32,746 bases of DNA from Bacteroidales bacterium (lineage in GTDB: Bacteria; Bacteroidota; Bacteroidia; Bacteroidales; Tenuifilaceae). Shown piece after piece: positions 18,719 to 31,989 of the stretch. Each line of letters starts with the position of its first letter. Within the stretch, counting starts at the first letter, position 1. The position numbers and the translations under genes are program-made. Below the pieces are notes generated by a model. It was given only the letters and a program-made list of their open reading frames with translations, did not search any database and was not told the origin of the DNA. The stretch covers positions 1 to 32,746 of the forward strand of contig JAFTDN010000170.1 in NCBI GenBank assembly GCA_017454165.1, read 5' to 3'.

Positions 18719-20883
18719 ATGATAGTAGATGACAATGCGCTCAAACACTCTTTAAAATCATATTTCGGATACGACACCTTCCTCCCCATGCAGGAGGAAA
18801 TCATACGCCACACTATCAACGGCGGCGATTCGATGGTGCTGATGCCTACGGGCGGTGGGAAATCATTGTGTTTCCAAATGTCGGCCCTGCAGATGGATGG
18901 CATGGCGGTAATCGTGTCGCCACTCATCTCGCTCATGAAAGACCAAGTGGATGGGCTGCGGATGAATGGCATAGCGGCGGAAGCCCTGAACAGCAGCAAC
19001 GATGAGGGATACAACCGCGACATCATGGAGCGTTGCTTGACGGGCAAGGTGAAGCTGCTCTACATCTCCCCCGAACGGCTGGTAAACAGAACATTAAGCC
19101 TGATACATGCAATAAAAGTGTCGTTGTTCGCCATCGATGAGGCCCCCATTGCATCTCAAGCTGGGGGCACGATTTTCGTCCAGAATACGCACAGCTAAGC
19201 CAACTAAAGGGACGGTTCCCACATGTCCCCATCATGGCCCTGACGGCCACAGCCGATAGGATAACAAGGGAAGACATCCTTGAACAGCTTAGCATCGCGC
19301 AGGCCCAAACTTTTATAAGCAGCTTCGACCGCCCAAATCTGAGCCTAGACGTTAAGCGGGGATACTCATCCCTCGAAAAGTTGCGCTACATAGAGAACCT
19401 CATCCACCACCACCATGGCGAAAGCGGAATAATTTATTGTCTCGCACGCAAGACAACCGAAGCCCTCGCTGTAAAACTGACGCTCGCTGGTTTTTCTGTT
19501 GGTGTGTACCATGCAGGCCTGTCAAACGCCGAGCGCAGCAGGGTGCAGGACGACTTTTTGAACGACAGGGTGCAGGTGGTGTGCGCCACCATTGCTTTCG
19601 GCATGGGAATCGACAAAAGCAATGTCAGATTCGTTGTCCACTACAATCTACCCAAGAGCATCGAGAGCTTTTATCAGGAGATTGGGCGTGGTGGCCGCGA
19701 TGGCCTGCCATGCGAAACGGTGCTATTCTACAACCTACAGGACATCATTATGCTGCGCAACTTTGCCAACAAAAGCGGGCAGCAGTCCATCAACCTCAAC
19801 AAACTGCAGCGTATGCAGGAGTACGCCGAGTCGCAGGTATGCCGCCGCCGCATCCTCCTGAACTATTTTGGCGAAGTGAGCGAGCACAACTGCGGCAATT
19901 GCGATGCCTGCCACGCTCCACCGCAATTATTCGATGGCACTACTATCGCACAGAAGGCTCTTTCGTTATTAGTTCGCGCAAATGAAAACATTGGATTCAC
20001 CATGACCATTGATATTCTACGCGGAATACAATCGGCAGAGGTGGTGTCCAACGGCTATAACCAAATAAAAACATTTGGCGTAGGCCGCGACATCTCTGCC
20101 CGCGACTGGCACGACTATTTGCTGCAGATGCTACAGATGGGTTTTTTCGATGTTGCTTACAATGAAAACCGTCACCTACGCATCACATCGTTGGGACGCA
20201 AAGTGCTCCATGACAAACAGAATGTACAGCTAGCCGTTATAAAACGCGAGGATTTCCCAGTCAAATCACGCAAGCGGAAGTTGTTAGAAACGAAACAAGA
20301 TACCATCGCAAAGCCGCACGATGCCACGCTATTCAACCGTCTGCGCGAGGTGCGGAAACGGCTGGCCGATGCAATAAAAAAACCTGCATTTGTGGTTTTA
20401 TCAGACCATTCACTTCAAGATTTAGCCCTTAAACGCCCCACATCAATGAAGGCCTTGCACGATGTATTCGGTTTTGGAGAGCATAAAGCAAGAACCTATG
20501 GAGAGCCTTTTATTGAGGCCATTGAGCAATACATATCCAACACTGAGGTCAAAGCGGCAGAAGTCCCTGCCACATGTAATCCCAGCTCCAACTGGTTTGT
20601 CGAGTATGAGCAGGAACTGCAACGCCTCATAGCTCTGAAAGAAGATACAGAAAGCCGCATCGAAGATATACGCACAAAAATTTTGCATCAGATGGAAACG
20701 CATCAGGAAGAAGAGCTGCAAACCGCGCTGTTCTCCATCCGCTATACGCCCGCAAAACAAATCATGCGATTCGATAGCAAACGGTTTAAGGCTGAAAACG
20801 AAGCACTGTTTTCATCGTACTGCGAACCACAAGAAAAGCCTGCATGTATCGTCGTTAGAAAGAAAAAAACAGCCGAATTATAG
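18719..20883 (+). pseudogene. recQ: ATP-dependent DNA helicase RecQ, frameshifted in the DEAH box
   Basis: RecQ helicases unwind DNA 3'-to-5' in recombination and repair. Two frames together give a complete protein of about 720 residues. The first (18719-19198) has motif 0 (FGYDTFLPMQEE), Walker A (MPTGGGKSLCF) and motif Ia, then derails at the Walker B site. The second continues as HCISSWGHDFRPEY and has LTATA, the motif VI region YQEIGRGGRDGLP, the zinc-binding CGNCDAC, the winged-helix RQC domain, an HRDC domain (about residues 535-615 of the joined protein) and a C-terminal coil. The break lies in a run of five C at 19143-19147: the DEAH codons require three C (GCC CAT), so two C are extra. 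Every later motif is intact, which argues for a very recent mutation, a reversible slippage site or a sequencing error. As written, only a 159-residue truncated product would be made. Confidence 0.92.
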
Positions 20884-21123: not shown

Positions 21124-24100
21124 CTACAGCTTCACCAGCTTGGCGGCCATGCTACCCGCCCGCACCACGTACACCCCTGCGGGCATACGGCTGATGTCCA
21201 CCCGGGTGCTGCCCTCGGGCAGCAGCGGCTGGCGGTGCAGCAGCTGGCCGCTGATGCTATGCACCTGCACCTCCGTGGCCATCGGGGCCTCAATGTTGAA
21301 TATGCCCGTGGTGGGGTTCGGGTAGAGCGTCAGCGACTCGCGCAGCGTGGCACCATCGCCAAGGCCTAGGGTGGTCTGGTGCACCACCGTCAGGTAGAGC
21401 GTTACTACGCTATCGCAGCCGTATACGTTCTTCAGCGTGTCGGCATAGGCACCGCTCTCGGTGTAGATTTTGCCGTTCCAGCTGTAGCTATCATCGGCGA
21501 GCACCGTCAGCCAGTAGTGCTCGTGCGAGCTGATTGTCAGGTTGAGCGTTACGATGCTGTCGCAGCCAGCCTGGCCCTTGAGCTCCTTGATATGCGTACC
21601 GCTGGTGGTGTACACATCGCCATCCCAGGCGAAGCTACGGCCCTCGCACAGCACCGTGTCGATGGTGGTGGTGCTAGGTAGCCCCATGGTCAGATGCAAC
21701 GTTACTATGCTATCGCGGCAGTCGCCCACAGCCCGAATCGTCTGGATGTAGTCGCCTCCCTCGGTGTAGGTTGTGCCCTCCCAGGTGTAGCTATCGCCGC
21801 AGATGCTCTCCCACACCTCGTTGTACACCGGATCGGCCACATCGCCCAGCAGCAGGCTCATCGTTACAACGCTGTCGCAGCCGCCCATGGCGGTGAACGT
21901 TTGGGTGTAATCGCCGCTGGCCGTGTAAAGGGTGCCATTCCAGGTGTAATCAGATGCGCAGGTGCTCACGGCGATGGCCTCATTGAAGCCGTCCACCTTG
22001 GTCAGGTGCAGCGTTACGGTGCTGTCGCAGCCGAGCTGCGAGGTGAACGACTTGGTGTAGGTGCCAGCCTCGGTGTAGGCCGTACCCTCCCAGGTGTAGC
22101 TACCGCAGAACGCCGCATCGATGTCGATGTTGTGCGCAGGGAGCACCGTCAGGTCGATGTAGGCCAATGTGTCGCCAGCGGGGTTGCTGATGCGCTTGGA
22201 GTGCTCGCCCGTGCGGTTCAGCTCATCGCCATACCACGGGTAGGGCAGCTCGTTGGCGCAAATTGAGGTGCGGATGGTGTCGTACACCGTCTCTATTACA
22301 TTCAGGTACAGCACCTTGGTGGCATCGCAGCCTGTGGGCAGATGCGTAATCTTGGTATAGATGCCAGCGGAGGTGTACGTCTCGCCCTCCCAGAGGTAGG
22401 GGTAGCCCTCACGGATGGTGGCGGCCTCGTACACGGTGGTGGGCGGCGTGCTGATGTTCAGGTGCAGCGTCACCACGCTGTCGCGACCGCAGCTGCCCAC
22501 AAAGGTGGTGTCGTAAGTGCCGCTGACCGTGTAGGTGCGACCGTTCCAGATGTAGTTGTCGCAGGCGTTCACAGTCTCATCGTGGGCTATGGGGGTAACC
22601 ACGCCCAGCTCTATGTCGAGGTTTACGATGCTATCGCAGCCGCCCACGGCGGTGAACTTGCCCGTGTACTGGCCGCTGGCCGTCAGCGTGATGGCATTGC
22701 CATCGGCATCGGCAAAGTCGTAGGTGGGCTCACAGATGCTCAGAACCACGGTCTCGTTGTAGCCCGGAACCTTGGCCAGATGCAGCGTTACGGTGCTGTC
22801 GCAGCCGAACTTCGACACCAGGGTCTTGGTGTAGTCGCCCTCGGTGAGGTAGGTGCTGCCCTCCCAGGTGTAGTCGGCTCCGCAGAATGTGGCGTTGGCA
22901 TCAATGCCGCTATAGATGGGATGTACGGTGAGCGTTAGCGTTTTCACGGTGTCTCGGTCGTTGGGGTTGTACACCGTGGCCTCGTGCACTCCTGTCTTGT
23001 TCAGCACGTTGCCCAGCCAGGAGTACGACTGGCCCTCGCAGATGTGGGCCGTCTCGTCCACGGTGATGGGCTCGAGCACCGTCAGGCGCAGCACCGAGGT
23101 GGCCACGCAGCCCGCTGCGGTGGTGCTGGTGTGGGTGTACTCGCCGCCATCGGTGAGCTGGTCGCCCTCCCAGACAAACGGGGCCTGACTGCGGCGTATG
23201 GTGGTGTCGAGCACCGCGGGGGCCGGAGTTTGGCCTATGGTCAGGTGCAGCGTTACTATGCTATCGCGGCAGCCCGTGCCGATGGTCTCGGTGTAGTCGC
23301 CGCTAGTCGTGTACACATTGCCGTTCCAAGTGAAGCTGCCAGCGCAGATGGTCTCGCTCACCTCGTTGTACACGGGGGCCAGGTTGTCGTTCAGCAGCAG
23401 GCGTAGCACCACGGTGCTATCGCAGCCGCTGGTCGAGGCCACAGTGCACTCATAGTCGCCGCTGGCCGTGTAGGTCTCGGTGGTGCCATCGGGCTTGGCC
23501 CAGGCGTAGCTATCCTCGCAGGTGCTCAGCTTCAGGGTGTCGCGGTAGCCGTCCACCTTGGTCAGGTGCAGCGTTACGGTGCTGTCGCAGCCAAACTTCG
23601 ACACCAAGGTCTTGGTGTAGTCGCCGCTGGCCGTGTAGGTGTTGCCCTCCCAGGTGTAGTCGGCTCCGCAGAACGATGCGCTGGCATCTATGCCGCTATA
23701 CACAGGGTGCACGTTGAGCGTCAGCGTGGCGCGGATGGGGGGCTGGCCCACCTGGGGCAGCATCTTCACGTGGTCGCCAGCGGTGTACAGCTCATCGCCG
23801 TACCACTTGACGGGCAGATTGTTGGCGCAGACGTTCACCGTGCTGTCAACGGGCACTGCATCGAGCATGGTCAGGTTGAGCACCTCCTCAGTGATGGTGC
23901 AGCCATCAGCCGAAGTGAACGTCTTGGTATGCTTACCGCTGTGCGTGTAGGTGTCACCAAACCATGTGTAGGGCTCAAACACCGTCAGGTCGGTGGTGTT
24001 GGTAACGGTGATGGGCACACCGAAGGTCAGGTTGAGCGTTACTGTGCTGTCGCAGCCGCTGGCGGTCTTGTAGGTATCATCGGTATAGGCCCCATCGGCG

Positions 24101-27100
24101 GTGAGCTTCACCACCGTGCCATCGAGCTTCGTCCAGCTGTACTCGCTGAGGCAGAAAGTGGTGTCGATGCTCTCGGCATAGGCCGAGCCCTCTGTGAAAT
24201 GCAGCGTTACGATGCTGTCGCAGCCGCTAACCGTGGTGAACTTGCCGGTGTAGTCACCCGTGGCGCTCACCGTGATGTCGTTGCCCGCAGCATCCTTGAA
24301 CGGGTACGCGCAGGCGGTGATGCTCACCTCCTCCTCGTACTTATCAATCAGCGTAAAGTGCAGCGTTACGGTGCTATCGCAGCCACCTGCAGTGGTGAAC
24401 TTACCCACGTAGTCGCCGCTAGCCGACAGGGTGATGGGGTTGCCATCGATGTCGTTGAACGCGTAGGGGCCACAGGCCGTCAGGCTCTGCTCCTCGTTGA
24501 ACTCGCTCACTATGCTCAGGTGCAGCGTTACTACGCTGTCGCAGCCGCTGGCCGTGGTGAGCGTCTGGGTGTAGTCGCCGCTGGCATCGTAGGTGGTGCC
24601 GTTCCAGATGTAGCTGCCGCAGGCCGCTGCGCTAAACTCGTGGCTTAGAACCGGCGCAGCGTTCAGGTGCAGCGTTACGATGCTGTCGCAGCCGAACTTC
24701 GACACCAGGGTCTTGGTGTAGTCGCCGGGGGCGGTGTACGTGTCGCCCGCCCAGATGTAGCTGCCGCAGAACTCGGCATCAATGTCGAGGTTGTACACAG
24801 GATTGATGGTCAGGGTCAGCCTCTCGATGGTGTCCTGCACTGGGTTGGGCAGTATCCACTCGTGTTCGCCCGAGGTCGTAATCACATCGCCCGTTCTCGG
24901 GTGGACGTACTCTCCGCACACGGTAGCCGGTGCGCCTATCACTGCGGGCTCCACCACGTGGGCTAAAATGATGGGAAGGTCGGTGGTCACGGTGAAGGTG
25001 TAGGGGTTGGCGGTGGTTACCAGAACGCCGCCCACATACCACCCAGCGAAGCGGTGGTTAGCGATGGGCTCAAAGGTGAACGTAACCTCGCTGCTGCAGG
25101 TCATTCTGATGTCGATAGGCGCTGTTTCGCCATTGATTGTGCCACCCTTGATAGGATTGCCCGTGTTGTTGCCCTCGCCATCGATATTCAGCACCATGGC
25201 CGAGATCATATGCTCGTTCAGGCTGAACGTGGCCTCCACGGTAACATCGCTGGCGGGCATTATTATCAGGGTATCCCCCTGAACGGGTACAGGGTTGTTG
25301 CTGGCATCGAAAGCCGTCACGAAACCGCTGCGGTGGTAGCAGGCATCGGGGTTGAAGCTGAGCAGCACCGAGTCGCCAGCGAACAGCTCGCTGGTGCGGC
25401 TGGCGGAAACCGAGCCGTTGGCCGTCGATGCTATGGTAACCGTGTACACGCGCTCGAACTGGGCTTCCACATCAACGGGGGTTGTTACATCCATGTCGGT
25501 GCGCGGGTTGTCGGTGCGGCCATCGCTCCACCGCTTGAAGCGGTAACCCTCGGCGGTAGGCGTTGCTAGCACCGCCTCACCGTTGCCACCGTAGGTTACA
25601 GCCTGCTCTGCGGTGCCAATCAGGGCTCCATTGGCATCGGCGGTGTAGCGCAGCTTTATAGTATCAATCTCGAAGTACACATGTGCCTCTATGTTCAGGC
25701 CAGGGTCGGGCATGGTGATGGTGCTGTCGGCGAGGTTCACCTGCCCCGTCAGGTCGTTGGTGTCATTTCCAGTCTCGTGGGCCGCAATGCCACCCGCACC
25801 CTTCTTCAGGTGGTAGCCCACCACGGGTTTTATGGGTATCTTCACCGCCTCGGTGGGCGAACCCGTGGTTTGCCACTTTGCGCCTATGGCGCTCATAGCC
25901 GCCTCGTGGTAGTACACCTCTATGGTGAATGCGGGCTTAAATGTTACCTCGAACTTGAGGTCATATGGCGGCATTATCAAACTGTCGTTTATTGAAGGAG
26001 GAACATTAGTAAGGTAGGTCGATAGCATGGGTTCTACCATCTCCTTCCATGTGTTGCCATCTTTGTAATAGATCGTCACATCATCGATGGTGTAGCCTGG
26101 GGCAGGTTTTATTATGTCCTGTATGCTTATCTTGTCACCAGCGAATAGGCTGTCCACAGGGCATATCTTGTTGCCTTGGCCATCCACCACCGTATCCTGC
26201 GGATTGGTGGGGTCGGGGGCTATGTTGTAGAATTTTTCGAACACCACGTCCACCTGCACATGGCTGGCGGGCATGTCGAAGGCGTAGCCCGCTGTGGGGG
26301 CCACCTTTTGGGTGGGGTCGCCAGAGTGGTAAATATCGAGGCTGCGCAGCTTGTACCCAGCGTTGGGCGTGAGGGTGAGCTGCACGGGGTCGCCCGCGAA
26401 CAGCCCGCTGGTCTTGTCAGCCGTGGCCGTGCCATCGGTAACGCTCAGGGTTACCGTGTATATAGGTGCGAACACGGGCACCACCGTTACATCGCCGGCG
26501 GGCATGGTTAGCTTGTAGGTATTGCTACCAGTGGTGATAGGAGCGGCGGGATTGGTGGGCACGGCGTTGGCAGGGTCGCCGCCGTAGTACACGCTCAGCC
26601 CCTTGAACCCGTAACCCGTTGCGGGAGCAATGGTGAGCGTAACCTCATCGCCCTCGAACAGCTCGCTGGACTTGTCAGCCGTGGCCGTGCCGTTGGTGTA
26701 CGGGGCCATGTTTACCTTGTACACCTGCTCGTACACCACCTCTACGGTTACCGCGTAGGCGGGCATCTTGTTCTTCAGCGTGGTGTCGGTGGCGTAGGTT
26801 AGCTCCACGGCGGTGGAGGGGTCGCCCGCCTTGTATGCCTTTATGCTCTTGATCTTGTATCCCTCGTTGGGCTTATGCCCTGTAACGGTTACGGGGTCGC
26901 CCTCGGCGTAGTAGGCCACAGCGGGGCCAGTGCCGTTGGTAACCGTATAGGTGAGTGGGTAGAGCTGTACGAACTCGGCCATCACGCTGAGGTCGGCTGT
27001 TACAGTCGTATCGGTGCGGGGATTCTCAGTGTTGCCATCGCTCCATTGTTTGAAGCGGTACGCATTGGCATCCGTAGGCTTTGCCGTTACGGGTGTACCA

Positions 27101-29805
27101 TTGGCTCCGTGCTCCACGGTTTGCGGTGTGGTGCCCTCTATGATGCCGCCCACACCGGCGGTGTAAGTGAGCGTGTAGGTGTTTTTCTCGTACTCTACAT
27201 TTACCACTATATTGACCGGTGTGCTGGGCATGGTTACTTTGGGGTTATCCTTGTCCACCACAATGGTGTTGGGCGTGGCGGTGATGCTCTTCACATGGTA
27301 GCCCGTGGCGGGGCTCACAGGTATGCTGAGCGTGCTGTCGGGGGCCAGCCTATAGATGGCATCGGGCAGGGTGCCATTGGGCCCATACTTCACCGTTACG
27401 GTGTACTTGGGCTTAAAGTCCACCTCTATCTTGATGTTACCTCCGGGCACTATTATGGTGTCGTTCAGCGTGGCCGGGCTGCCCGTTACGTATGGGGCGG
27501 TCAGCGGTTTCCACGTGCATGGCTCGCTGTCGCAGTATAGTATACGCACGGTGTCAACCTCGTAGCCAGGCTGCGCGGGGTTCACTATGTCGCCTATCCG
27601 CACCGAGTCACCGGCGAACAGGCTGTCCACGGGATATATGGTGTTGCCAGCAGGGTCGGTTATGGTGTCCAACATTGGGGTCGAGGGGTCGGGATCGATG
27701 CTGTAGAGCTTCTCGAACTCCACGCTCACCTTTACGTTCTTGGCAGGCATGGTGAAGCTGGTGTCGGCCCCTATGGTTACATCTGCCGATGTGATGCCCC
27801 GCAGGCTGGGATGCAGGGCGTAACCAGCATTGGGGGTAAAGGCATATTTGCCCAGCCGCACCACCTCTAGGCTATCCAACTCGCCAATGGTGAGCGGATC
27901 TGCGCCGTTCACCTTGCCATTGGTGGCATCCACCGTGAGGGTAAACTCCTCAAAGAATGTCCAGCCCAACCAGGTTTTGTCGCTGGGGTTGTAGTAGTTG
28001 GTATGATTCTTATAGGTAGCCTTGGCGTTCTTGTACTGATCGCTCGGCGGCAACAGCTCAGCTCCAGTGCTGGGGTTCACAAAGCGGAGGTACCTAGGCG
28101 TAGGTATCTGATAAAACGGATTATTACCCCCTGTAGGGGAGCTCAACTTAGTCAAGGCACCTGTGTTATAATTTTTTGTAACTGCAACAGGTGCTACAGG
28201 AGGTAGCCATATTGAATCCAATCTAGCATATGCAAAAGCCGATGCAACCAACCGTTGTACTCTAGGAAGCTTTATCTTCTTAAGTTGTGTGCATCCATGA
28301 AAAGCATACTGGCCAATCTGTTCAGCATATGGCAGCTCAACATGGCTAAGGTTTGTTAGTCCATAAAACGCGCAGGCACCAACTTCTATCACAGAATCCC
28401 CAATAAATGTGGTGAGCGTTGTAGGAAAAAACATTCTACCATTGGAATTAGGCGCATTTTCTATATTGGGGATGCTCACAGGGGGGCGTATGATGAATTC
28501 CTGCAGGCTAGTGAAATTCGCACGGCTGTCGCGCATGTGGTTCCAATCCAAATAGATAAAGCTACCCGACACCACCTCAATGCTGGTGATAGCGTTGTAC
28601 GCCACTCCACTTGCGTCCAGCACATCTTTCAACCTCGCCATTGTAATAGGAGCTCCCCCGTTCACACTTACGGTTAGATCTTTCAATCCACTTCCCACAG
28701 CGCCACCGAACCAGAACCCATCGTAGCCATGACAGGATTTATCATCTGTGCTATCAGCCACATATGCCGCTTGGGCATCTCGCAGAGCTTGTCCTGTAAG
28801 TGGAGTACCATCGGCAGCCGATGGTATTATCAGAACAGGCATGGGCACTCCCGCCCAAGTTAATCTGACCGCAGCACACAAATAAGAGGTATCGGAACCA
28901 AGTCCATCAGGCCCATTGCCATGCGTTGTCTTTGAAATAGGTTCTCCGCCGCTACAATAATTATTTCCTTTGTATCCAACTACTGCAGGGGGAGTTGCTC
29001 CCAAGTACAGCTCAGAAAGATTAATACACTGCTGAAATGCATGATGTCCAATTGAATCAACCAATGGGGCCACTACTTTGACAAGTTGTGGCTCCGACCC
29101 TATTGTATAGTTAACCATGCTAAATGCTCCGTATCCAATGTATTTAGCTTTTGGAATATTTATTTCCTTTAACTTATAACATTGTTTAAAGCAAAAACGT
29201 GGAATATATTCCACATTGGGAATTTCTATCTCTTCTAACGATTTACACTCTTGAAATACCGAGCCTGCTCCCCCATTCGCTGACATGTTATACCGATAAT
29301 CATAAGTGGATTCTTTCTTTGTATAGGTGCCGCCCAAGTATTTTAGCTCAGGCAGAATAACTCTTTTTAAATTTGTACAGCCATAAAATGTATAATCACC
29401 CATAAACTCTAATTTACGAGCAATAAATTCTTCTATCGCGGGCAAATCTTTAATTCCATTTTGTCTTATGCGCCCAAAGTTATCATCATCATAACAGTCA
29501 TACCGTGAGTGCCTACCCCCTCCCAAATTCGCTACGGAATTTATCCCATCAGTAATATGAAACCTTTTTAACTCTTCAAAGCCAGATGCCAAAGTCTCCC
29601 AATCAGCTGCTATAAAATCGCCCGCAGTAATTATCAGTGAGTCTATATCTCCCTTATTCCCAACATCCGACAATCGCCCCGATGCTGAGAATTCAGCTGC
29701 TCCTCTATAGATCTTTATTTCAAGGGGAAGGTTCTGCGCCCAAGCCGTCTGCGCAAGGGCAGCGAGCAAAAGAGCAAAAAGAATGCGTAAAGTATTGCCT
29801 TTCAT
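21124..29805 (-). CDS. Giant T9SS-exported repeat protein (BspA-like LRR, InlB-type repeats, Cys-pair repeats)
   Basis: A 2893-residue cell-surface or secreted protein. I place the start at 29805 (MKGNTLRILFALLLAALAQ), which gives a Sec signal peptide cut near TAWA-QN; an in-frame ATG at 29871 would bury it. Order: BspA-type leucine-rich repeats (about 40-600, as in INIPKAKYIGYGAFSM and YAFHGCTQLKKIKLP); InlB/Listeria-Bacteroides-type repeats (about 620-1610, as in EGYRFKRWSDGRTDNPRTD); about 23 units of about 50 residues (about 1625-2815), most of the form C-G-x-Y-x-W-x-G-x-x-Y, then G-D-Y-T, then G-C-D-S-x-V-T-L; and a C-terminal type A sorting domain (about 2822-2893, LTLYPNPTTGIFNIEA, MPAGVYVVRAG) that directs T9SS export. 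Likely an adhesin or matrix protein; the ligand is unknown. No enzymatic domain is seen. The LRR part is coded in AT-richer DNA than the rest. Confidence 0.93.
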   Translation of the reverse strand: MKGNTLRILFALLLAALAQTAWAQNLPLEIKIYRGAAEFSASGRLSDVGNKGDIDSLIITAGDFIAADWETLASGFEELKRFHITDGINSVANLGGGRHSRYDCYDDDNFGRIRQNGIKDLPAIEEFIARKLEFMGDYTFYGCTNLKRVILPELKYLGGTYTKKESTYDYRYNMSANGGAGSVFQECKSLEEIEIPNVEYIPRFCFKQCYKLKEINIPKAKYIGYGAFSMVNYTIGSEPQLVKVVAPLVDSIGHHAFQQCINLSELYLGATPPAVVGYKGNNYCSGGEPISKTTHGNGPDGLGSDTSYLCAAVRLTWAGVPMPVLIIPSAADGTPLTGQALRDAQAAYVADSTDDKSCHGYDGFWFGGAVGSGLKDLTVSVNGGAPITMARLKDVLDASGVAYNAITSIEVVSGSFIYLDWNHMRDSRANFTSLQEFIIRPPVSIPNIENAPNSNGRMFFPTTLTTFIGDSVIEVGACAFYGLTNLSHVELPYAEQIGQYAFHGCTQLKKIKLPRVQRLVASAFAYARLDSIWLPPVAPVAVTKNYNTGALTKLSSPTGGNNPFYQIPTPRYLRFVNPSTGAELLPPSDQYKNAKATYKNHTNYYNPSDKTWLGWTFFEEFTLTVDATNGKVNGADPLTIGELDSLEVVRLGKYAFTPNAGYALHPSLRGITSADVTIGADTSFTMPAKNVKVSVEFEKLYSIDPDPSTPMLDTITDPAGNTIYPVDSLFAGDSVRIGDIVNPAQPGYEVDTVRILYCDSEPCTWKPLTAPYVTGSPATLNDTIIVPGGNIKIEVDFKPKYTVTVKYGPNGTLPDAIYRLAPDSTLSIPVSPATGYHVKSITATPNTIVVDKDNPKVTMPSTPVNIVVNVEYEKNTYTLTYTAGVGGIIEGTTPQTVEHGANGTPVTAKPTDANAYRFKQWSDGNTENPRTDTTVTADLSVMAEFVQLYPLTYTVTNGTGPAVAYYAEGDPVTVTGHKPNEGYKIKSIKAYKAGDPSTAVELTYATDTTLKNKMPAYAVTVEVVYEQVYKVNMAPYTNGTATADKSSELFEGDEVTLTIAPATGYGFKGLSVYYGGDPANAVPTNPAAPITTGSNTYKLTMPAGDVTVVPVFAPIYTVTLSVTDGTATADKTSGLFAGDPVQLTLTPNAGYKLRSLDIYHSGDPTQKVAPTAGYAFDMPASHVQVDVVFEKFYNIAPDPTNPQDTVVDGQGNKICPVDSLFAGDKISIQDIIKPAPGYTIDDVTIYYKDGNTWKEMVEPMLSTYLTNVPPSINDSLIMPPYDLKFEVTFKPAFTIEVYYHEAAMSAIGAKWQTTGSPTEAVKIPIKPVVGYHLKKGAGGIAAHETGNDTNDLTGQVNLADSTITMPDPGLNIEAHVYFEIDTIKLRYTADANGALIGTAEQAVTYGGNGEAVLATPTAEGYRFKRWSDGRTDNPRTDMDVTTPVDVEAQFERVYTVTIASTANGSVSASRTSELFAGDSVLLSFNPDACYHRSGFVTAFDASNNPVPVQGDTLIIMPASDVTVEATFSLNEHMISAMVLNIDGEGNNTGNPIKGGTINGETAPIDIRMTCSSEVTFTFEPIANHRFAGWYVGGVLVTTANPYTFTVTTDLPIILAHVVEPAVIGAPATVCGEYVHPRTGDVITTSGEHEWILPNPVQDTIERLTLTINPVYNLDIDAEFCGSYIWAGDTYTAPGDYTKTLVSKFGCDSIVTLHLNAAPVLSHEFSAAACGSYIWNGTTYDASGDYTQTLTTASGCDSVVTLHLSIVSEFNEEQSLTACGPYAFNDIDGNPITLSASGDYVGKFTTAGGCDSTVTLHFTLIDKYEEEVSITACAYPFKDAAGNDITVSATGDYTGKFTTVSGCDSIVTLHFTEGSAYAESIDTTFCLSEYSWTKLDGTVVKLTADGAYTDDTYKTASGCDSTVTLNLTFGVPITVTNTTDLTVFEPYTWFGDTYTHSGKHTKTFTSADGCTITEEVLNLTMLDAVPVDSTVNVCANNLPVKWYGDELYTAGDHVKMLPQVGQPPIRATLTLNVHPVYSGIDASASFCGADYTWEGNTYTASGDYTKTLVSKFGCDSTVTLHLTKVDGYRDTLKLSTCEDSYAWAKPDGTTETYTASGDYECTVASTSGCDSTVVLRLLLNDNLAPVYNEVSETICAGSFTWNGNVYTTSGDYTETIGTGCRDSIVTLHLTIGQTPAPAVLDTTIRRSQAPFVWEGDQLTDGGEYTHTSTTAAGCVATSVLRLTVLEPITVDETAHICEGQSYSWLGNVLNKTGVHEATVYNPNDRDTVKTLTLTVHPIYSGIDANATFCGADYTWEGSTYLTEGDYTKTLVSKFGCDSTVTLHLAKVPGYNETVVLSICEPTYDFADADGNAITLTASGQYTGKFTAVGGCDSIVNLDIELGVVTPIAHDETVNACDNYIWNGRTYTVSGTYDTTFVGSCGRDSVVTLHLNISTPPTTVYEAATIREGYPYLWEGETYTSAGIYTKITHLPTGCDATKVLYLNVIETVYDTIRTSICANELPYPWYGDELNRTGEHSKRISNPAGDTLAYIDLTVLPAHNIDIDAAFCGSYTWEGTAYTEAGTYTKSFTSQLGCDSTVTLHLTKVDGFNEAIAVSTCASDYTWNGTLYTASGDYTQTFTAMGGCDSVVTMSLLLGDVADPVYNEVWESICGDSYTWEGTTYTEGGDYIQTIRAVGDCRDSIVTLHLTMGLPSTTTIDTVLCEGRSFAWDGDVYTTSGTHIKELKGQAGCDSIVTLNLTISSHEHYWLTVLADDSYSWNGKIYTESGAYADTLKNVYGCDSVVTLYLTVVHQTTLGLGDGATLRESLTLYPNPTTGIFNIEAPMATEVQVHSISGQLLHRQPLLPEGSTRVDISRMPAGVYVVRAGSMAAKLVKL
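21330..24905 (-). repeat. Tandem array of about 23 Cys-containing repeat units inside the giant gene
   Basis: Counted by eye on the protein: 23 units of 48-58 residues (about 150 bp each). In DNA the most conserved core is GCAGCGTTACGGTGCTGTCG or close variants on the plus strand (reverse complement of the CDSTVTLHL codons). A typical unit has one Cys at its start (FCG, ICA, ACG) and one in GCDS, suggesting a disulfide per unit; units near 1625, 1990, 2245 and 2505 lack the second Cys. Every fifth unit is nearly identical between residues about 2030 and 2700. Confidence 0.88.
25500..27730 (-). repeat. Duplicated module of InlB-type repeats inside the giant gene
   Basis: Two copies of the same series of domains: PVDSLFAGDSVRIGDI then a TVTVKYG-type unit then EGYRFK-W-SDG units. 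The marker GGCTGTCCAC lies at 27621-27630 and again at 26148-26157 (1473 bp apart); the marker GCCATCGCTCCA lies at 27034 and 25519 (1515 bp apart). The copies have clearly diverged at protein level, so the duplication is not recent. Confidence 0.7.
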
Positions 29806-29896
29806 GGTATGTGTGTAGTTAGTTGTTAGCACTTCGTTACTTGGACATTGGTACGAGCATCGCCACCGCAATGTTACACATCCGCCTTTTTTTTAC

Positions 29897-29904: not shown

Positions 29905-29929
29905 CAGCACCCATAGAAACCCACCGCAC

Positions 29930-30814
29930 ATGCCCCACCGCACATGCCCCCGCATAGCGCTGCTGCTGGTCGCCCTAGCGGCGACCCTGTCGGGATGCCG
30001 CAGCCGCATGGTCATCCCCGAGGACGACATGGTGAGGGTGCTCACCAAGCTCTACCTCACCGATGCCACCCAGTTCGGACGCGAGGCCGCCCCTGGCCAG
30101 CCCATGCTCTACTACGAGCCCGTGCTGGAGCGCTACGGCTACACCATGCAGCAGTTCGACAGCTCGCTGCGCTACTACTCATCGCGCCCCGAGGTGCTCG
30201 ACCAAATATACGACCACGTGATAGGCGAGCTCACCAAGCTCGAGGCCCACATAGCCGAACAGGCCCAGCGCGCCGCCGAGGAGGCCGCCCGCAACCTATG
30301 GCCCTGGGCCGAGCACCTCAGCCTGCATCAGGCCGACTCCATGCACAACCCCCACCTGCGCTTCGAGGTGCAGCTCCCCCGCCCAGGCCTGTACGCCCTC
30401 GCCTTCACCCTGCGCCGGGGCATCGCCGACAGCACCATCGCCCCGCGCTTCGAGGCCGCCCTATGGGGGCCCGACAGCATGGCCGCCAGCGCGCAGTCGC
30501 ACCCCTACCCCGCCGACACCTCGGCGCACGAGCTTGTGTTCGAGTTCGATGCGCCCGACTCCAGCACCACCCTGCGCGGTGCGCTCTACCTCCACGCCAA
30601 CAGCCCCTCGGCCCAACGCAGCGCGGCTTTCAGCGGAATATCGCTGCGCTACAACGCGGAGGCCGCCGAAAAGCAGCGGCTCAAAAAATTTACCCCGTTC
30701 AGCCTAAAGCGCAGCGAGCAGGCCCCAGCGCAGACCGAGGCTCCCCAGAAGAAGCTCAAGCTGAGCAGGCGGGTCGAGAAGCTGCAACGGGAAAAGCAGC
30801 CCGAAGCGCGATGA
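29930..30814 (+). CDS. DUF4296 lipoprotein
   Basis: A 294-residue lipoprotein: the signal peptide ends in the lipobox LSGC with Cys23. Residues about 30-108 fit DUF4296, a small helical Bacteroidota domain (IPEDDMVRVLTKLYLTDA, YYEPVLERYGYTMQQFDSSL, VLDQIYDHVIGEL). The rest (about 125-250) looks like a beta-sandwich region, followed by a very basic tail (KLKLSRRVEKLQREKQ). The function of DUF4296 is unknown; it is usually found next to lspA or other envelope genes. The stop codon overlaps the next start by 4 bases (ATGA), so the two genes are translated together. The start at 29930 is the first ATG after the promoter. Confidence 0.85.
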   Translation: MPHRTCPRIALLLVALAATLSGCRSRMVIPEDDMVRVLTKLYLTDATQFGREAAPGQPMLYYEPVLERYGYTMQQFDSSLRYYSSRPEVLDQIYDHVIGELTKLEAHIAEQAQRAAEEAARNLWPWAEHLSLHQADSMHNPHLRFEVQLPRPGLYALAFTLRRGIADSTIAPRFEAALWGPDSMAASAQSHPYPADTSAHELVFEFDAPDSSTTLRGALYLHANSPSAQRSAAFSGISLRYNAEAAEKQRLKKFTPFSLKRSEQAPAQTEAPQKKLKLSRRVEKLQREKQPEAR

Positions 30815-31989
30815 GCATCCGCCGATTTGCGGCCCACTATGTGTTCCCCATCGAGGGCCCACCCCTCAGGAACGGCGTGGTGGAGCTAGACGGGCAGGGC
30901 TACGTGCGGGCCGTATGGGAGGCCCGCAACCCCGATGCGCTGCACAGCACCGAGTTCCACAACGGGGCAATCGTGCCCGGCTTCGTGAACGCACACTGCC
31001 ACCTAGAGCTGTCGCACCTGCGTGGGACTATGCCCAAAGGGCTGGGGCTCACGGAGTTCGTGCGCCGCGTGGGCAGCCTGCGGCAGGCCCCGCCCGAGCG
31101 GGTGGCCCAGGCCATCGATCAGGCCATCGATGAGCTGCAGCGCACGGGCGCCGTGGCCGTGGCCGACATCTGCAACACGCCCGACACCATTGCCGCCAAG
31201 CGGCAGGCCAAGGGGCTGCGCTTCTGCAACCTGGTGGAGGTCTTCGGCATAGGCCCGCACGAGGCCCAGTCGGCCTACGCCAAGGCCAAGTCCGTGCAGG
31301 CCAGCTTCGCCGCCCAGCTGGACGGGGCCCAGCTGGTGCCCCACGCACCCTACAGCGTGAGCGATGCCCTGTGGGTGCTGCTACAGCCCGAGCTGCAAGG
31401 GCAGCGCGTGAGCTTACACCTAGGCGAGAGCCAAGCCGAGTACGAGCTACTACAGCACGAGCGCGGCGAGCTGTTCAACCGCTACTCGCGCAGCATAGCC
31501 AGCTATAGCATACCCACGGGCGGCTCGCCCGAGGGGGTGGCGGCGCACTGGCTGCCAGCTTCCTGCCACCCGCTGCTGGTGCACTGCACCTACGCCCATC
31601 CCGAGGCGCTGCGGGCGCTATGCGCCCGCTTTGGGCAGGCCACGGTGGTTACCTGCCCCGAATCGAACCTGCACCTAGAGGGCCAGCTGCCCCCGCTGCC
31701 CGAATGGCGGCGGCTGGGCCTGCACGTGGCCATGGGCACCGACAGCCTGGCCAGCGCCACGCAGCTCTCCATGCTGCACAACATCAACCTAGCGCTCGAT
31801 ACATTCGCCGAGCTGCCGTTCGTCGAGGTGCTGCGCTGGGCCACGCTGGGCGGCGCCGAGGCCCTAGGCCTCGAGACCCAGCTGGGGAGCATTGCCGTGG
31901 GCAAGCAGCCCGGCCTGTGCCTGATAGAGCAATTCGACTTCGCCTTCATGCGTCCCACCCCGCAGAGCACCGTGCGGCGGCTGGCGTAG
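30811..31989 (+). CDS. Metal-dependent amidohydrolase (deaminase-type, SsnA/MqnX-like)
   Basis: A 392-residue TIM-barrel hydrolase of the amidohydrolase superfamily. Metal ligands are visible: NAHCHLE with His62 and His64, His in SLHLGESQAE, His in LLVHCTYAH, and Asp in MGTDSLAS; the C-terminal GSIAVGKQPGLCLI is the usual beta-sandwich closing segment. The cluster that reads NAHCHLELSHL followed by VPHAPYSVS is typical of the chlorohydrolase/aminofutalosine-deaminase-like branch, which deaminates nucleosides or related ring compounds. The true substrate cannot be assigned; no other menaquinone gene is in the window. The start at 30811 overlaps the previous stop; a longer in-frame extension back to 29944 is the other frame of the lipoprotein gene and is not real. 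Confidence 0.87.
   Translation: MSIRRFAAHYVFPIEGPPLRNGVVELDGQGYVRAVWEARNPDALHSTEFHNGAIVPGFVNAHCHLELSHLRGTMPKGLGLTEFVRRVGSLRQAPPERVAQAIDQAIDELQRTGAVAVADICNTPDTIAAKRQAKGLRFCNLVEVFGIGPHEAQSAYAKAKSVQASFAAQLDGAQLVPHAPYSVSDALWVLLQPELQGQRVSLHLGESQAEYELLQHERGELFNRYSRSIASYSIPTGGSPEGVAAHWLPASCHPLLVHCTYAHPEALRALCARFGQATVVTCPESNLHLEGQLPPLPEWRRLGLHVAMGTDSLASATQLSMLHNINLALDTFAELPFVEVLRWATLGGAEALGLETQLGSIAVGKQPGLCLIEQFDFAFMRPTPQSTVRRLA

Follow-up and report, generated by a model that had tools for sequence, protein, structure and literature searches.

On the minus strand of the window, by which we mean the whole stretch of 32,746 nucleotides that was analysed, lies a giant gene which combines leucine-rich repeats, InlB-type repeats, a long array of cysteine-containing units and a C-terminal sorting domain. 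Its open frame covers 21124..29871 when counted from the first TTG, while the ATG at 29805, the first one with a signal peptide after it, leads to a product of 2,893 amino acids. All residue numbers given here refer to P0001, the numbering of which begins 22 residues before this product. The gene is divided as follows.

21124..29805, minus strand: whole coding sequence of a T9SS cargo protein of 2,893 aa (open frame and translation, Pfam and NCBIfam domains)
29734..29805, minus strand: predicted Sec signal peptide MKGNTLRILFALLLAALAQTAWAQ (read from the sequence)
28972..29424, minus strand: BspA-type LRR block 1, residues ~150-300 (PF13306 and PDB 4fs7)
28192..28476, minus strand: BspA-type LRR block 2, residues ~466-560 (PDB 6mlx and a second LRR_5 stretch)
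24955..27924, minus strand: InlB-type (Flg_new_2) repeat region, residues ~650-1639 (eight Pfam stretches; outer limits approximate)
21388..24954, minus strand: array of 23 Ig-like Cys units, residues 1640-2828 (segmentation, alignment, HMM and AF2 models)
21127..21327, minus strand: T9SS type A C-terminal sorting domain (PF18962 and TIGR04183; genome-search match at 21136-21327)

The BspA-type family LRR_5 (PF13306) is recognised by Pfam with an E-value of 1.4e-26 (93.3 bits at a gathering score of 27.7), its best stretch comprising residues 150 to 252, and the PDB entries 4fs7 and 6mlx (TpLRR) match residues 191-282 (E 5.5e-16) and 491-541 (E 7e-09), respectively. Flg_new_2, the divergent InlB B-repeat (PF18998), is found in eight stretches with an E-value of 4e-46 and 155.3 bits (gathering score 23.6). 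At the C-terminus, Por_Secre_tail (PF18962) scores 34.6 bits (E 2.4e-08; cut-off 27) and the T9SS type A sorting domain of NCBIfam (TIGR04183) 31.1 bits, placing the protein above the curated cut-off of 23 by which type A T9SS cargo is told from its sequence. The open frame, Pfam and NCBIfam thus bear out an earlier note on this DNA, according to which one chain of 2,893 residues unites LRRs and InlB-type repeats with an array of Cys repeats and a sorting signal.

The same note had pictured the protein as a stalk which is anchored at its C-terminus and carries an LRR tip. The interpretation given in the note is partly supported. Its picture of the stalk agrees with the order of the domains, with the type A tail, with the bead-like AF2 models described below and with the presence in the genome of SprA and of a full-length PorU sortase (1,200 bits). 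The T9SS is able to release cargo as well, so that the protein might instead be set free to diffuse and to serve as a binding or matrix protein. We regard such a release as unlikely, since the type A tail together with the complete PorU favours anchoring to A-LPS and since a stalk with a tip would make little sense in solution.

The combination of domains, considered unusual in the earlier note, proved to recur, and is hence not unique. Two further proteins of the same genome, L001 (2,056 aa) and L002 (1,507 aa), contain LRR, InlB, Cys-unit and C-terminal sorting parts in the order of the window protein, and additional mixes of these parts are encoded elsewhere in this genome. In the congener (G001) an LRR-InlB-Cys protein (L123), cut by a contig end, is 55% identical in its LRR region, and two further homologues of the N-terminal part are present. 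L067, from a Paludibacteraceae MAG of horse faeces, possesses LRR, InlB and many Cys units with no recognised tail, and L078, from goat, LRR and Cys units plus the tail. Neither did the supposedly unusual size hold, as related arrays reach, among the matches listed, 59 detected units within one frame of 4,306 aa. In total, 38 T9SS tail matches were counted in the genome of the window, many of them on frames of 1,000-3,600 aa; the tail carriers include three subtilase giants (L003, L005 and L006) with GEVED, Laminin_G-like and InlB domains.

A gene pair encoding a DUF4296-like lipoprotein and an amidohydrolase (29930-31989, plus strand) adjoins the giant gene and is conserved in the congener (G001:C36). 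The divergent neighbour of the pair is there, in place of the giant gene, a 153-aa protein, from which it follows that the locus is not conserved, and the notion of a conserved gene neighbourhood was discarded. A perfect 14-bp repeat of 2.2 copies, CCCACCGCACATGC, occupies 29920-29950, in the gap that separates the giant gene from its divergent neighbour. A recQ-like helicase gene, which also lies beside the giant gene and on the plus strand, is split just past its AIDEA motif into two frames (18719-19198 and 19234-20883). The same genome contains another recQ homologue elsewhere (G000:C148); the best recQ match of the congener (G001:C141) is a homologue of similar identity, and a close copy of the window recQ was not found there.

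Distribution of the Cys units

Segmentation of residues 1640-2828 yields 23 units of 48-56 aa each, which resemble each other more at an offset of five units, where identity rises up to 84%. TRF detects no tandem DNA repeat within the gene, indicating that the array is old and diverged instead of being a product of recent slippage. No model in Pfam, NCBIfam or PHROGs corresponds to the Cys units of the window protein, and no Pfam model covers the units of a 51-unit array from another genome; PF13573 (SprB) is absent from both proteins at an E-value threshold of 0.1. Searches of the PDB with the units (phmmer and profile searches) returned weak antibody or unrelated matches only, and the PHROGs search nothing of note. 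A contig scan with a 437-aa stretch of the array as query gave no matches; the consensus unit used as query did, and matched at least 351 confirmed stretches in GTDB genomes. Among the matches listed, the kept loci belong mostly to Bacteroidales of the rumen or of other herbivore guts. The Cys unit is common in herbivore-gut Bacteroidales despite the missing library model, while its occurrence within the family of the window organism itself is patchy. Judging by the congener, this organism is probably a herbivore-gut bacterium, too.

Cysteine pattern and bead geometry

In the following, C1 denotes the conserved cysteine after strand A and C2 the one within the GCDS motif before the last strand; units are coded 2 if they possess both cysteines, s if they possess C1 only and e if they possess C2 only. 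In this code the window array reads s22222e s222e s222e s2222e and is divisible into four blocks, within which we infer the units to be stapled to one another.

23869..24954, minus strand: putative stapled block 1, units U1-U7, s22222e, U1 with C1 only and U7 with C2 only (cysteine pattern)
23080..23868, minus strand: putative stapled block 2, units U8-U12, s222e (cysteine pattern, five-unit super-repeat)
22303..23079, minus strand: putative stapled block 3, units U13-U17, s222e (cysteine pattern, five-unit super-repeat)
21388..22302, minus strand: putative stapled block 4, units U18-U23, s2222e, final unit without C1 (cysteine pattern)

The term "Cys-pair repeats" used in the earlier note calls for correction, since 8 of the 23 units hold a single cysteine, in an ordered pattern. 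If C1 of each unit is paired with C2 of the following one, 19 pairs result and no cysteine of the array is orphaned; pairing within units leaves eight orphans and pairing of C2(i) with C1(i+1) ten. Four C2 losses can be distributed in 8,855 ways, of which the observed arrangement is one. The pairing of C2(i) with C1(i+1), at first hinted at by adjacent single-Cys units, was discarded on account of this orphan count and of the coupling described below.

Over all arrays, the C1(i)-C2(i+1) rule holds at 1,183 of 1,202 junctions (98%), both cysteines being kept at 1,144 and both lost at 39, with 19 mismatches. The odds ratio of this association amounts to about 500 with a p-value of 4e-55 which, like the other p-values, should be taken as indicative, since the co-losses are clustered and the sequences related, so that independence is overstated. 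Shuffling of the unit order leads to 9.5 co-losses and, in 2,000 trials, to never more than 18 co-losses or fewer than 96 mismatches. The coupling does not change if zero tolerance is applied to the position of the Cys columns. In the alignment of the co-loss dyads, the eye readily picks out a change of C1 to Tyr followed, one unit later, by a change of C2 to Ala (TAYDSY compared with the usual TACDSY, then GADS compared with GCDS) in units which otherwise follow the consensus. In loci from genomes outside the set used to find the rule, 68 junctions are kept, four co-lost and three mismatched, which are small counts; the corresponding C2(i)-C1(i+1) table contains six joint losses, as expected where s and e units alternate.

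Direct-coupling analysis (DCA) of 1,184 distinct unit pairs points in the same direction. C1(i) and C2(i+1) are coupled with a z-score of 20.8, which is still 5.3 once the co-loss pairs are removed, while the value for the two cysteines within a unit is 0.1. The analysis further reveals an antiparallel D-E hairpin and a parallel A-E ladder; a hairpin between E(i) and A(i+1) is not found in these pairs. As strand A runs parallel to strand E, C1 is located at the exit end of the unit and C2 at its entry end, so that C1(i) comes together with C2(i+1) where the two units join. The AF2 models of three and four adjacent units (pLDDT 89.6 and 90.7) represent serial Ig-like beads at high confidence. 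The strands of the first unit (6-14, 19-21, 24-26, 30-37 and 43-52) fit the geometry obtained from DCA. The four-unit model spans an unstapled junction at which its confidence is equally high. Such junctions need not be flexible hinges, and the idea that they are finds no support in the model confidence.

The C-terminal end of the arrays is in line with the rule as well. In the unit directly preceding the sorting domain C1 is missing in 35 of 41 proteins and C2 is present in all 41; C1 losses in interior units amount to 38 in 1,064. The final unit has nothing to bond to, and the rule predicts its C1 to be of no use. Six proteins keep C1 in their last unit, and in most of these the tail that follows contains a cysteine. 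Some C1-less terminal units (in L108, L088, L091, L100 and L049) have gained a close Cys pair (DSCYTWNG..YC), which is perhaps a local replacement disulfide. The opposite end is less clear-cut: 78 of 94 array starts checked open with a two-Cys unit, and in all 78 a cysteine occurs no more than 70 residues upstream. Several of these upstream stretches resemble, by eye, missed start units or Ig_7-type domains, and cysteines upstream of the first unit that match the usual spacing exactly are no commoner than background. The partner of the first unit's C2 is thus presumably often a domain of another type.

An ordinary disulfide within each unit, as in a classical Ig domain, would render the single-Cys units decayed or inherited variants. 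Both cysteines are in fact present in 1,262 of 1,442 units, and 66 of 138 runs consist of two-Cys units throughout, so that they contain no orphans under within-unit pairing. Yet 148 single losses are opposed by no double loss within a unit, and the parallel arrangement of strands A and E puts the two cysteines at opposite ends of the bead. Taken together with the absent within-unit coupling and the eight orphans in the window protein, this makes a bond inside the unit quite improbable. As far as coevolution can tell, the cysteines display neither the coupling nor the co-loss of a classical intradomain pair.

About equally improbable is the view that the block pattern merely mirrors descent, i.e. 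that a start/end module of single origin was copied and the co-loss inherited along with it, which would leave the pattern silent on bonding. Blocks 2 and 3 of the window array are indeed clear duplicates, and the nearest neighbour of many single-Cys units falls in the same class. Nevertheless, the co-loss dyads are spread over 18 loci and, depending on the threshold, 8 to 23 clusters, a two-Cys unit is the closest relative of 46 of 78 start-type units, C1-less terminal units span several different sequence classes, and the SprB repeats, although another family, exhibit the same pairing. An assembly chimera joining repeats of several genes, conceivable in a genome of 190 contigs where several such genes reach contig ends, as they do in the congener, is highly improbable given a single open frame that possesses a start, a signal peptide and the tail, a cysteine grammar which is perfect along the whole array, and other proteins of the same domain order.

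All statements on disulfides made here are inferred from sequence variation. The patterns of cysteine loss in more than 1,000 related beads point to a disulfide which ties each bead to its successor. This predicted linkage, absent from the earlier note, is what is new about the protein.

Related systems and the predicted stalk

SprB-type repeats (PF13573), which occur in giant T9SS adhesins of the same bacterial order, likewise consist of tandem small Cys units with an early cysteine and with a GC motif that precedes the last strand. In the loci sampled, their C1(i)-C2(i+1) odds ratio is 124 (p 1e-16), exceeding unit-order shuffles too, and no within-unit coupling is present; this coupling is a trait common to both repeat types and not an established criterion of the SprB family. 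The SprB unit differs in belonging to another sequence family, with 75 positions, and Pfam finds no SprB match in the window protein. A search with the SprB consensus gave weak matches to phage decoration and similar proteins.

In Foldseek, both of our models match best to fragments of the Aureispira grappling hook protein GhpA (PDB 9flp, 9flw and 9fly), with E-values of 1e-3 for the three-unit and 1.5e-6 for the four-unit model. GhpA is also a giant extracellular protein, but its identity to the window models is 13-15% with TM-scores of 0.28-0.35 and VIA Z-scores below 5, and VIA-align of the models found no match with a Z-score of 5 or more. The hooks of Aureispira have been reported (PMC11205867) to be heptameric and to be made of a protein secreted by the T9SS; heptamer and hooks are features of GhpA, whereas the window protein is known from its sequence and from predicted models.

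With the BspA-type surface proteins (PF13306) the window protein shares the N-terminal LRR_5 repeats and their PDB relatives, yet its LRR head makes up about one fifth of the chain and sits atop the InlB and Cys-unit regions. Gram-positive giant adhesins of the Mobiluncus mulieris type resemble it in their very long Ig-like array with covalent cross-links (PMC10619420). These ester, isopeptide or disulfide cross-links are formed within domains connected by flexible linkers (PMC10619420), while the links predicted here connect one domain to another. Disulfides are treated for the attachment of SprF tracks (PMC12635249), not as inter-unit links. In a search largely confined to literature outside subscription journals, we found no paper that describes disulfides between the units of SprB or similar arrays, and none that explains how long T9SS stalks stay extended.

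We consider it probable, at roughly three chances in four, that the window protein is a T9SS-exported, A-LPS-anchored stalk with an LRR tip, the beads of which are chained by predicted C1(i)-C2(i+1) disulfides, and that the SprB repeats obey the same rule. On the standard path of such cargo, the chain would be exported by Sec, form its disulfides in the periplasm and then leave the cell via the T9SS; a VKOR homologue, which scores above its cut-off in this genome, offers a possible disulfide-forming route. From what is known of the family, PorU would remove the tail and link the C-terminus to A-LPS, whereby the Cys array would end up nearest the cell, with the LRR head, borne on an InlB neck, at the distal end. 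The head is predicted to bind a glycan or protein ligand; as to what it adheres to, plant fibre, mucus or other cells are the natural guess.

According to the coevolution data, each unit of about 50 residues would form a small Ig-like bead, the chain running in at its bottom and out at its top, with C1, at the end of strand A, at the top and C2, before strand E, at the bottom. A bond from C1 of one unit to C2 of the next would then act as a covalent staple locking each junction, and a block would open with a C1-only unit and close with a C2-only unit. The window stalk would accordingly comprise blocks of 7, 5, 5 and 6 units separated by three unstapled junctions. Provided that each bead spans ~3 to 4 nm, we estimate the length of the Cys array at ~70-90 nm. 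Owing to the staples, the stalk should remain extended and withstand both pulling and proteolysis.

In gliding, for instance, giant T9SS adhesins have to bear force. It seems to us somewhat likelier than the contrary, if less assured than the reading of the window protein itself, that T9SS stalks of Bacteroidota in general, SprB-type adhesins included, consist of Ig-like beads in series, each linked through a disulfide at its top to the bottom of its successor, with start-cap and end-cap beads setting the length of every covalently locked segment. Apart from this, the present work defines a widespread repeat family missing from the profile libraries searched. If the beads are indeed stapled, the stalk would represent one chain-linked filament whose stiffness may be read from its cysteine grammar, with cap units marking start and end of the locked segments, and the rule would predict disulfide maps for many unannotated surface proteins.
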